Positions 5,743-15,856 of a stretch of 43,153 bases of DNA are shown piece after piece; within the stretch, counting starts at the first letter, position 1; every line of letters starts with the position of its first letter. The translations under genes and the position numbers were made by a program. The notes beneath the pieces were generated by a model. That model had not been told where the DNA came from. It saw nothing but the letters and a program-made list of their open reading frames with translations, and made no database searches. Location: contig JAFUGL010000135.1 of assembly GCA_017469405.1 (NCBI GenBank), positions 1 through 43,153 of the forward strand, given 5' to 3'. This DNA comes from Lachnospiraceae bacterium (GTDB taxonomy: Bacteria; Bacillota; Clostridia; Lachnospirales; Lachnospiraceae).

Positions 5743-6615
5743 ATGAGCAATACCTACAAGGATTTACAAAATTCACATCCTTGTTTTGGAGGACATAAGA
5801 ATAATGTTGGAAGAATTCATCTTCCTGTCAGTCCGGGTTGTAATATAGCCTGTACATTTTGTGATAGACAGATAAATGATGTGGAAGAACGGCCGGGTGT
5901 TACCTCAAAGGTGCTTAAGCCTAAGGAGAGTCTTGATATTTTAAAGAAGGCACTTGCCCTTTGTCCGGAGATTACGGTTGCGGGTATAGCCGGACCGGGA
6001 GATACTCTTGCAACAGATAATGCACTTGAAACTTTTAGGCTGATTAAGGAAGAATTTCCGGAGCTTATAAAGTGCATGAGTACAAACGGGCTTTTGTTAT
6101 ATGAGAGGGCGGATGACATACTTGAAGTCGGTATAGATTCTCTTACGGTCACCGTAAATGCGGTTGATCCCGAGATTGAAGCAAAGCTCAATAAATACAT
6201 CATATATCACGGCAAGGTGATAGAAGGTGCAGAGGGAGCAAAGATACTGATAGAAAACCAGCTTAAAGGAATTAAAAAGCTGGCGGATGCGGGAATGACC
6301 ATAAAGATTAATACGGTGCTTGTTCCGGATATAAACGGAGACCATATCGAAGAGATAGCAAAAACAGTAGCCGAGGCAGGCGCAAGCATTTATAACATAA
6401 TTCCTCTTATACCTCAGGCAGAGCTTAAAAATGAAAGAGCTCCTGTTTGCAGGGAGATTGATGAAGCAAGAACAAAAGCGTCCCAATATATAGATGTATT
6501 CAGACACTGCCAGCACTGTCGTGCCGATGCGGTGGGAGTACCCGGAAAGTCCGAATTCGGTGACCGGATATATCAAAGAAGAATAGCTGTAAAGGAAACA
6601 TTTTCACATGGATAA
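5743..6615 (+). CDS. nifB: NifB-type radical SAM nitrogenase cofactor maturase (290 aa, no NifX domain)
   Basis: NifB fuses two [4Fe-4S] clusters and inserts carbide to make the 8Fe NifB-co precursor. The radical SAM motif is C33-x3-C37-x2-C40 in CNIACTFC. The extra NifB ligands are also visible: HPC at residues 12-14 and C256-x2-C259 in HCQHCRADAVG. Other NifB signatures are GRIHLPVSPGC, ERPGV, AGPGDTLA and STNG. Length fits the short NifB form lacking the C-terminal NifX domain, which is instead encoded by the next gene with an 8-bp overlap. RBS AGGTGAGG precedes ATG 5743. The complete ligand set indicates that a genuine NifB-type cluster is made, rather than the simple [4Fe-4S] used by chlorophyll-type homologs. 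Confidence 0.9.
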   Translation: MSNTYKDLQNSHPCFGGHKNNVGRIHLPVSPGCNIACTFCDRQINDVEERPGVTSKVLKPKESLDILKKALALCPEITVAGIAGPGDTLATDNALETFRLIKEEFPELIKCMSTNGLLLYERADDILEVGIDSLTVTVNAVDPEIEAKLNKYIIYHGKVIEGAEGAKILIENQLKGIKKLADAGMTIKINTVLVPDINGDHIEEIAKTVAEAGASIYNIIPLIPQAELKNERAPVCREIDEARTKASQYIDVFRHCQHCRADAVGVPGKSEFGDRIYQRRIAVKETFSHG

Positions 6616-6967
6616 ATATAAATATCTTGTAGCAGTTGCTTCTTCAGACGAAATAGTTGTTAATACGCATTTCGGTAAAGCGGATACATTTCTAATATAT
6701 GGGATTTTAGAAGATAATAGCTTTGAGTACATAGAAAGAAGAGCTCTAAAGCCTGTATGTGAAGGTGGCGACCATGATGAGGGAAGGCTTATCGAAAATG
6801 CACAAAGCCTGAAGGATTGCGCATATGTACTGGTGAGCCGGATAGGCCCAAGGGCAGTAAATATACTTGAAGCAAACGGTATAACAGCGATGGAGATACC
6901 GGATATCATAGATAACGCATTAAATAAGATTATTTCATATGATGAAATTCAAAAGTTGTTTGAATAA
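6608..6967 (+). CDS. NifX/NifB-C-terminal-domain cofactor-binding protein
   Basis: This 119-aa protein has the dinitrogenase Fe-Mo-cofactor-binding (NifX/NafY) fold. It begins KYLVAVASSDEIVVNTHFGKADTF in the family pattern (read in two parts: KYLVAVASSDEI and VNTHFGKADTF) and ends with the DNALNKI region. It probably carries NifB-co or a related cluster from NifB to the apo-enzyme. It overlaps nifB by 8 bp, so translation is probably coupled; in many nitrogen fixers this domain is fused to NifB. It is a paralog of the 11914 protein but lacks that protein's Cys/Gly insert. Confidence 0.85.
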   Translation: MDKYKYLVAVASSDEIVVNTHFGKADTFLIYGILEDNSFEYIERRALKPVCEGGDHDEGRLIENAQSLKDCAYVLVSRIGPRAVNILEANGITAMEIPDIIDNALNKIISYDEIQKLFE

Positions 6968-7082
6968 ATAATATTAAAAAAGTATTCTATAAGATTGCTC
7001 TGATAAGTGTATAAAAGATTTTTCATTTTATATACAGGGCATTTATTAAAAATAAAATAAGAATCAGAAAGGACATAAAAAA

Positions 7083-14474: not shown

Positions 14475-14566
14475 ATACAGCGGTTGAGGATAAATTATTA
14501 TAATATTTTTATTAATTTATCATGTTCTAAAAGGTAATGTTAGTTATATCTTAGGAGGAAAAATCT

Positions 14567-15856
14567 ATGTCTCAAATATTGGAAAATCCACGCGGTGGCT
14601 GCGTGCTGGCGGGCGTAAACTCTGTTCTTGCGGCAATTGACAGAGTATGTCCTATATTTCATTCTGGACCGGGCTGCTGTATGCAGACATCGGCTGCAGA
14701 GCAGGGACAGTCAGGTCATAAATCATCCTGCTTTGTAAGCAGTGTTTCAATTCCATCAAGTAATATGCTTGAAAAGGAGGTTGTATTCGGAGGTCTGGAT
14801 AAACTAAGAACCACTATCCAGGGTTCAGTTGATATAATAGATGCTGATGCATATTTTGTTTTAACAGGCTGTACCGCAGGTATAATAGGTGATGATATAG
14901 CCAGTGTAACAGATGAATTTCAGGCTAAGGGAGTAAGTGTATATCCTATAGACACTCCGGGCTTTGCCGGAGACAGCAACCTCGGATATGAGGTTGTATG
15001 GAATACCATGATAGACCAGGTAATAGAGGAAAATGTGCCGCGTGACGACAAGCTTGTCAATATATTTGGTATAGTTCCTTATCATGACCCGTTCTGGAGC
15101 GGAAGCCTTGAGGAAATCGACAGGATACTTTCCAAGCTTGGACTTAAGGTCAATACATTTTTTACAAAGCACCAAAATATCGAGGATGTACGTAAATGTT
15201 CCGGTGCAGCGCTTAATATAATTATAAATCCATGGTTATTTAAGGGACCGGCGAAGAAATTTGAAGAAAAATTCGGCGTACCATCCATAAGAATTGCAGG
15301 TAATCCTATCGGTGCAACCGACACTACTGCCTTTGTGCTTAAGGTTGCCGATGCTCTTAAGCTTGATAAAGAGCTTGTAGATAAGGTGATTGACGAGGAA
15401 GAGGATTATGTGTATAGTTATCTTGGTCAGTCGATAGGTGTACTTAGCTGGAAGCGTTTTGCCGTTGTGGCAGATGCAACCAATGCCATAGGTATAACCA
15501 GATACCTTGCCAACGATTACAGCTTTACACCTGTACTTGTGGTTATATCCGAGCCTATCTATCGTGAGGAGGATAAGCAAAGAATCATAGATATGATAAC
15601 CAATCTTGAGTATGCAAGACCGCCTAAGGTGGTATTTACCGCTGACCAGTTTGAGATAAATGAGACAATCTTAAGTGAAGAGGAAGACATCACGCTCTTA
15701 ATCGGCAGTACCAATGAAAAAGAAGTCGGACTTGAAAAGGGAATCCAGTTTATAACTGCCGCCTTCCCTATGAACGAAAGACTTGTATTCAATCGTACAT
15801 ATACCGGTTATCGTGGAAGTCTGACCTTTACAGAGGATTTGTATGACAACTTATAA
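14567..15856 (+). CDS. Nitrogenase-like component 1 beta subunit, second pair (NifK-like)
   Basis: This 429-aa protein carries the three P-cluster-type cysteines C12 (RGGCVLAG), C37 (HSGPGC, with C38 adjacent) and C102 (TGCTAGIIGDD). It also has extra C28 and C55. NifN scaffold proteins normally keep fewer of these ligands, so a complete set favours a catalytic pair. GYRGSLTFTEDLYDN at the C-terminus corresponds to GYTGGIRLIEDIYS of the first K-like protein. RBS AGGAGG lies before ATG 14567, 92 bp after the second D-like gene. Confidence 0.87.
   Translation: MSQILENPRGGCVLAGVNSVLAAIDRVCPIFHSGPGCCMQTSAAEQGQSGHKSSCFVSSVSIPSSNMLEKEVVFGGLDKLRTTIQGSVDIIDADAYFVLTGCTAGIIGDDIASVTDEFQAKGVSVYPIDTPGFAGDSNLGYEVVWNTMIDQVIEENVPRDDKLVNIFGIVPYHDPFWSGSLEEIDRILSKLGLKVNTFFTKHQNIEDVRKCSGAALNIIINPWLFKGPAKKFEEKFGVPSIRIAGNPIGATDTTAFVLKVADALKLDKELVDKVIDEEEDYVYSYLGQSIGVLSWKRFAVVADATNAIGITRYLANDYSFTPVLVVISEPIYREEDKQRIIDMITNLEYARPPKVVFTADQFEINETILSEEEDITLLIGSTNEKEVGLEKGIQFITAAFPMNERLVFNRTYTGYRGSLTFTEDLYDNL

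Follow-up and report, generated by a model that had tools for sequence, protein, structure and literature searches.

Introduction

Among nitrogenase-like systems, MarBHDK of Rhodospirillum rubrum (methylthio-alkane reductase, Mar) enables the cell to make methionine from volatile organosulfur compounds (PMC9147875), and its active-site hallmarks and residue roles have been laid out in MarD numbering (PMC12552129). Heliophilum fasciatum carries five pairs, NflDK1–5, alongside one NflH, one nifB-like gene and one nifX-like gene (PMC9147875). Dos Santos 2012 sorted clades by Cys275, His442 and P-cluster cysteines, found Cys275-bearing pairs commonly beside cysteine synthase or O-acetylhomoserine sulfhydrylase, and described four linked DK genes, with linked pairs as possible scaffolds (PMC3464626). 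In 2026, the termite-gut spirochaete P. corrugata was reported to have group-IV nifDK and cysteine synthase in one operon (PMC13067680). For a further system, IsrBHDK, a heterologous test used the isethionate transporter SsuCAB (PMC11423573). Here we describe a locus in a 43,153-nucleotide window (contig JAFUGL010000135.1, positions 1 to 43,153) of a Lachnospiraceae bacterium (genome of 2.75 Mb, 138 contigs, 91.5% complete), in which one NifH-type and one NifB-like protein accompany two nitrogenase-like D/K pairs, D1K1 and D2K2.

The locus shares with MarBHDK the B–H–D–K set, all six P-cluster cysteines and Cys270 (MarD numbering), and D1 further retains Arg428–His429, Trp195, Phe199 and His375. 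D1 differs in its separate subclade, in isoleucine for His194 and glycine for Cys73, and in the CysK-type enzyme between H and D; D2 lacks Arg428, His429, Trp195 and His375 and forms its own clade, and the locus holds two DK pairs. As in Heliophilum, several group IV DK pairs go with one H and single nifB-like and nifX-like genes; by contrast, that organism is a phototroph, no cysteine-synthase operon is described for it in the accessible text, and the comparison is one of descriptions only (PMC9147875). The pairs of Dos Santos 2012 and P. corrugata likewise stand beside CysK, the former also including linked pairs of pairs with Cys275, whereas a split into three ligand classes or a nesting of D1 and D2 is not described in the parts available (PMC3464626, PMC13067680). 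IsrBHDK is also a nitrogenase-like desulfurising enzyme for sulfur assimilation, but IsrD has one P-cluster cysteine and no Cys275, and IsrB is not NifB-like (PMC11423573). Since CysK adjacency and several pairs with one H were reported in 2012, 2022 and 2026, the layout, which an earlier note on this DNA did not recognise, is not new. What that note had not seen is that the two pairs differ sharply in their cofactor ligands and that D2K2 comes as an optional addition to D1K1. Among the open-licence papers listed by our searches, none dealt with the D2 clade or with the present loci from rumen bacteria.

Results

All named locus genes are full-length open reading frames (ORFs) on the + strand with strong family matches, in the order of Table 1 from the cystathionine-type gene to K2. 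The NifB, NifH, two NifX-fold proteins (X1 and X2), two D/K pairs and Rrf2 regulator that the earlier note placed in one block at 5743..15856 were all recovered, as were both of its CysK-like enzymes, one of which (CysK1, 4630-5568) lies outside that range. The block in fact starts at about 1948, which adds a cystathionine gamma-synthase/lyase-type gene, a PatB C-S lyase, CysK1 and a tRNA-Cys.

The ancestry of both pairs was examined in D and K phylogenies. A carefully computed phylogeny of 85 D proteins fully supported the separation of NifD, VnfD and two NifE from group IV; VnfE was placed with group IV, but its branch is very long and we do not trust the position. A second D tree (92 rows, quick method, VnfE excluded) resolved three group IV clades: clade I (44 rows, including MarD and D1), clade II (28 rows) and clade III, comprising D2 with seven rows for its orthologues and joining clade I at a support of 89 only. 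The K tree returned the same three clades (41, 24 and 7 rows). ORFs shorter than 380 amino acids, near-duplicates and K proteins in the D set (Tsac_a1, Tsac_b2) were removed before tree building, and L118 (no P-cluster pattern; L and G numbers denote our loci and genomes) was left out, like the long-branched VnfE, of the second tree only. D2 was thinned to 10 of 42 rows in the first tree and 7 of 96 in the second, where the D1 rows are the locus D1 and a few others of 51; the 96-sequence D2 set, like the 61 nifB loci used below, contains genomes fetched twice. Both pairs lie outside NifDK and NifEN, as the earlier note had suggested, and D2 and K2 group with Mar-type proteins in both trees. 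Ordinary NifDK plus NifEN is ruled out by the trees, the ligands and the absence of any NifV-type homocitrate synthase above cut-off; nearby HcsV-type genes would, according to the earlier note, have counted against its reading. A molybdenum (Mo) nitrogenase NifDK was also rejected: clade position, Gln191, His195, NifEN and NifV all disagreed with it.

D1 matches R. rubrum MarD best among known structures (9fmg, E 5.4e-93; best non-Mar structure 1.9e-34), and K1 matches R. rubrum MarK (E 2.4e-116). The P-cluster-type cysteines, three per subunit as the earlier note had it, are at 52, 77 and 143 in D1 and, judged by motif, at 12, 36 and 95 in K1. In both trees D1K1 falls within the Mar superclade and outside the subclade that holds R. 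rubrum MarDK (five rows for D, six for K). By sequence, D1K1 is a new Mar-superclade member with altered active-site residues. The signature retained by D1 is nearly invariant across the 44 rows of clade I (Arg428, His375 and Cys270 in 44, Trp195 and Phe199 in 43, His429 in 40). Clade II keeps the loop-I histidine in 28/28 rows with no arginine, and has tyrosine at 199 in 28. These counts set aside six long-branch rows (L271_3905, two of L274, two of L275 and L258_15176), only the last of which stands beside clade I. Four clade I proteins (L112, L114, L119, L269) keep Arg428 and have glycine or alanine for His429, so that either cofactor ligation differs there or the alignment is shifted by one position. 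At clade II loci (such as L065, L074, L084, L089, L113, L115), a CysK 61-64% identical to CysK1 often adjoins, in variable gene order.

D2 and K2 also match Mar structures best, more weakly (E 5.7e-71 and 2.3e-68), with P-cluster-type cysteines at 49, 74 and 142 in D2 and, by motif, at 12, 37 or 38, and 102 in K2. The D2 clade (7/7 rows) keeps Cys270 and has cysteine at 195, threonine at 375 and a deletion at Arg428–His429; lacking the Arg-His loop, Trp195 and His375, D2K2 is not filed as Mar. The Mar comparison drawn by the earlier note is supported for D1K1, which has most of the signature; D2K2 forms its own clade. NifD Gln191 and His195 correspond to Cys180 and Phe184 in D2. A loop-II histidine (His424 in D2) occurs in 95/96 D2 sequences, the remaining one having missed the search pattern; it matches the NifD His442 position counting back from the following glycine and comes two residues early counting from the preceding strand. 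His424 is a candidate ligand. D2K2 is a distinct clade, and this clade with its ligand pattern is the real point of interest. An apparent D2–K2 fusion in L144, suggested by an open frame, was rejected on a stop codon between the two genes.

The two pairs are unevenly distributed. D2 was present in 8 of 37 genomes of the genus (own genome included), all 8 with D1. In the order sample of 392 genomes, we found D2 orthologues (71-85% identity) in 10 besides our own, and all 11 D2 genomes had a D1 relative (58% identical in one, G284). Conversely, D1 (77-89%) was found without a D2 orthologue in ten order-sample genomes (G155, G183, G185, G223, G266, G322, G325, G331, G368, G374), 8 of them at least 92% complete, where the best D2 match reached 27-35%; NifH lay near D1 in 10/10 and NifB in 9/10, and D1 of G183 is split in two ORFs. 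Order and phylum searches scored up to four candidates per genome, and the re-checks of D1-only and D1-less genomes scored all. H, B or D1 was absent from the fetched stretch in 26/54 D2K2 loci of at least 14 kb. When 26 D2 genomes, mostly without H, B and D1 near D2K2, were searched whole, D1 was present at 81-89% in 23. D2K2 mostly accompanies D1K1, often at a distance and without H or B, and D1K1 stands alone in ten genomes; a second reductase borrowing H and B fits this better than an obligatory scaffold does. We infer that D2K2 is mostly, and not strictly, an optional add-on needing something from the D1 operon, most simply H and B.

At 71-100% identity, D2K2 occurs in Lachnospiraceae, in further Clostridia and in Treponema, with rumen and gut as frequent sources. 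Among the best 80 of 157 matching stretches, D2 relatives in named genomes were 82-100% identical, including Treponema bryantii and Ruminiclostridium hungatei, and the closest records were uncultured Lachnospiraceae metagenome-assembled genomes (MAGs) of the RUG series (presumably rumen uncultured genome; one D2 100% identical) together with goat and roe deer stomach MAGs. Cultured strains with D2K2 include Butyrivibrio hungatei, Eubacterium ruminantium and Treponema bryantii. In the phylum, genomes with several pairs are common (G789 has at least six D proteins and G476 at least four). On the Treponema saccharophilum plasmid pTS2 (L208), a nitrogenase-like sulfur locus with two D/K pairs lies about 5 kb from CRISPR-Cas type I-C genes, indicating that the system occurs on plasmids; both pairs belong to clade I, not D2, and flank an ABC transporter whose match to the SsuA family is weak (31.6 bits).

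One set of accessory proteins would serve both pairs. The NifH that the earlier note saw in the locus is the only one above cut-off in the genome, two further matches scoring 30 and 24 bits against 394; its Cys97 and Cys132 we take to be the cluster cysteines. A PF00148 search of the same 91.5% complete genome gave the four D/K proteins only. The NifB-like protein scores 265.7 bits on TIGR01290 over profile positions 9-278 of 441, below the cut-off of 343.65 because its NifX-type tail is a separate ORF (X1), and its best Protein Data Bank (PDB) match is NifB 7bi7 (E 5.8e-86). Cys33/37/40 are presumably the radical-SAM cysteines, and Cys14 and the C-terminal Cys256/259 are assumed to have their familiar roles. 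A Cys/Gly-rich stretch, with a DCR-x2-VC-like motif after it, breaks the NifX fold of X2, and the Cys-rich stretch recurs in orthologues. X2 has 4 to 11 cysteines per protein (55 distinct sequences) versus 1 to 5 in X1. X2 is possibly a metal or cluster carrier.

In 14/61 testable loci (eight distinct genomes, several fetched twice), a tRNA-Cys is found no more than 800 bases from the start of nifB. A special isoacceptor is not supported: the one in our window is the sole tRNA-Cys among 22 tRNA matches of the incomplete genome, and neither nif nor nitrogenase occurs as a word in PMC8762117. Upstream of nifB in L059, L060, L102 and L110 (three genera), a hairpin-like element GGACAACCG...GTTGTC (or similar) recurs, followed by a T-run; no Rfam match was found for it in L059, L102 or L110, and it may be a terminator or an unassigned leader. 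As for an upstream riboswitch or T-box, only a tRNA and glmS reached threshold in the window, and nothing did in six related loci.

The neighbours are sulfur genes, in keeping with the sulfur amino-acid context described earlier: CysE-like, CysK, cystathionine enzymes, and sulfonate-type and cystine-type transporters. Within 9 kb of D2 in 84 loci (86 minus L199 and L203, which lack an intact D2 ORF), we counted X2 37 times, the CysK family 28, Rrf2 26, D1 26, H 23, B 21, LysR 18, ABC permeases 18, SsuA/NMT1-type binding proteins 16, PNPOx-like proteins 12, SAT/CysE-like 11, NifS 11, ThiF-rhodanese 9 and NifU-like 8, all lower bounds with many loci on short contigs; the names NifU, permease, ATPase and DNA methyltransferase, among similar ones, were assigned by inspection. 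The sulfonate-type binding protein near D2 scores 73 bits on the SsuA subfamily model (cut-off 163.5). The genome itself has two PF09084 matches, neither in the window. A PF01077 sulfite reductase domain was not found in it by a search that was positive in 11/14 control genomes; a pathway that yields sulfite would therefore be of less use. The position of a CysK-type enzyme between H and D1 suggests, tentatively, that the sulfur first becomes sulfide or a cysteine S-conjugate.

The Rrf2 protein has only Cys23 and Cys139, and thus no IscR-type cluster triad. Its best model is CymR; B. subtilis CymR acts in complex with CysK (PMC3828012), which would fit regulation by cysteine status. A palindrome, CCTACT-N5-AGTAGG with flanks, occurred with up to two mismatches in 26/266 upstream regions (shuffled mean 0.45), the same regions from which it was derived, many from close relatives. 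The window is not enriched for it (4 matches at two mismatches, 6 expected), and 543 held-out upstream regions gave 0 at one mismatch and 4 at two, against 2.5 in shuffled sequence. It was rejected as a shared operator after this held-out failure and is kept only as a lead.

A low-GC segment (16660-19213) that separates the HD gene from the ABC transporter carries a DNA cytosine methyltransferase and a convergent gene. L128, a near relative, has the start of its transporter gene 464 bases past the HD gene, so the segment looks like a recent restriction-modification insertion.

Table 1. Genes and elements of the nitrogenase-like locus, in window coordinates
Feature	Position	Strand	Evidence
Cystathionine gamma-synthase/lyase family PLP enzyme	1948..3108	+	Best NCBIfam model 454 bits, below cut-off 594; family clear, exact reaction not
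PatB/MalY family C-S lyase	3188..4366	+	TIGR04350 444 bits, cut-off 340
Palindrome CCTACT-N5-AGTAGG, perfect, candidate operator	4520..4536	.	Upstream of CysK1; found post hoc
CysK1, cysteine synthase A	4630..5568	+	TIGR01139 450 bits, cut-off 351
tRNA-Cys (GCA)	5644..5713	+	Between cysK1 and nifB
NifB-like radical SAM maturase without NifX domain	5743..6615	+	Profile and PDB matches
X1, NifX/NifB C-terminal-fold cluster carrier	6608..6967	+	Profile match
NifH-type Fe protein	7083..7925	+	TIGR01287 463 bits, above cut-off
CysK2, second cysteine-synthase-family enzyme	7959..8948	+	TIGR01136 338.9 bits, cut-off 344
D1, predicted Mar-superclade catalytic alpha subunit	9029..10492	+	Structure match, trees, ligands
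K1, MarK-like beta subunit	10492..11790	+	Structure match, K tree
X2, NifX-fold protein with Cys/Gly-rich insert	11914..12405	+	Profile match, sequence
Rrf2 regulator, CymR-like	12536..12958	+	CymR model 133.5 bits, cut-off 195
D2, alpha subunit of separate D2K2 clade	13032..14474	+	Structure match, trees, ligands
K2, beta subunit of D2K2 clade	14567..15856	+	Structure match, K tree
Amino-acid (possibly cystine) ABC transporter, three genes	19772..22300	+	Substrate-binding protein: cystine model PRK11260 53 bits, cut-off 312; permease and ATPase by eye

Discussion

Gene content, ancestry, retained ligands, co-occurrence and neighbourhoods can be read directly from these genomes. On this basis we consider it rather probable that the locus is a sulfur-acquisition module in which two nitrogenase-like reductases share one Fe protein and one cofactor maturase and the freed sulfur is captured by CysK. 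NifB would make an [Fe8S9C]-type cluster, which the NifX-fold carriers X1 and X2 would deliver to D1K1 and D2K2, and NifH would pass ATP-driven electrons via the P-cluster to it. Like Mar, D1K1 may then cleave an organosulfur compound at its C-S bonds; D2K2, presumably sharing H and B with D1K1, may run the same reaction on another substrate through a changed active site. Sulfide or thiol would be captured by CysK1 and CysK2 on O-acetylserine, the cystathionine enzymes would spread the sulfur, and the CymR-like regulator would set expression by cysteine status. Most likely, both enzymes strip sulfur from organic compounds for cysteine rather than fix nitrogen.

Several observations weigh against this proposal. 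The reductase activity of D1K1 and D2K2 is predicted from sequence. At the D1 substrate site, MarD His194 is replaced by isoleucine (Ile179) and Cys73 by glycine (His194 is found in 5/44 and Cys73 in 17/44 rows of clade I), and the long-branch row L258_15176 stands beside clade I without the Mar signature. A second cofactor ligand is not identifiable in D2, which may accordingly not hold the cluster as an active site. Three of the 26 D2 genomes lack D1, two of them with D2K2 as the only PF00148 pair and the third with a different second pair; unless those MAGs are incomplete, the nesting of D2K2 within D1K1 is not strict. The sulfonate-type transporter was rejected as a marker of the D2K2 substrate, since binding-protein homologues also occur near other nitrogenase-like clades (2/10 D1-only, 6/29 clade II and 7/35 other clade I loci versus 19/84 D2 loci), and the palindrome did not hold up in the held-out regions.

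That D2K2 is instead a NifEN-like scaffold maturing or delivering the cluster for D1K1, with D1K1 as the only reductase, we regard as unlikely, if deserving of attention. Like NifE, which has the cysteine and no His442, D2 has Cys270 and no loop-I histidine; D2K2 occurs mostly with D1K1, NifH and NifB would be shared, the best NCBIfam model of K2 is NifE (far under cut-off), and scaffolding was proposed in 2012 for linked pairs (PMC3464626). A scaffold sits poorly with the ten order-sample genomes holding D1K1 and no D2K2, with the grouping of D2 and K2 away from NifE and NifN, and with an [Fe8S9C] cluster that would need no Mo or homocitrate step, and its odds are lowered further by the two of 26 genomes in which D2K2 is the only pair.

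Sulfonate chemistry of the Isr type, with isethionate or another sulfonate as substrate, appears quite improbable for this locus. The SsuA-family binding protein, below cut-off, near D2K2 in 16/84 loci and the similar weak match between the two pairs on the T. saccharophilum plasmid speak for it, but D1 and D2 each have three P-cluster cysteines and Cys270 with a NifB-like maturase, whereas IsrD has one such cysteine and no Cys275, and IsrB is unlike NifB (PMC11423573). Isr itself was rejected on the cysteine pattern; sulfite, the proposed Isr product, would moreover need the sulfite reductase that the genome search did not find. It is very improbable that D2K2, or both pairs, form a group IV-A (Nfa-type) nitrogenase fixing N2. 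NifV did not reach cut-off, NifEN is lacking, the neighbours are sulfur genes, Cys180 and Phe184 occupy the NifD Gln191 and His195 positions in D2, and the conserved His424, although near the NifD His442 position, is two residues off counting from the preceding strand, even though Endomicrobium and Heliophilum are reported or predicted N2 fixers with group IV proteins and no NifEN (PMC9147875).

If D2K2 is a second reductase of the sulfur module, it might, as a tentative and rather doubtful extension, hold a nitrogenase-type [Fe8S9C] cluster in a third way, as a widespread rumen organosulfur reductase with chemistry unlike that of Mar. Nitrogenases use a histidine in one loop and Mar a histidine in another; the sister clade II probably also uses the Mar-loop histidine, conserved in all its rows without the arginine. 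D2, with no Mar loop and a cysteine at the Gln191/Trp195 site, would rely on the loop-II His424 or on no axial protein ligand. With D2K2 in cultured strains, the protein ligands that are really required by a carbide cluster of the nitrogenase type can be tested directly. Should sulfur indeed be released in this way from plant or host organosulfur compounds, it would be a so far unassigned step in how sulfur moves through rumen and gut bacteria, from which methanethiol, methane or other small products could be released.

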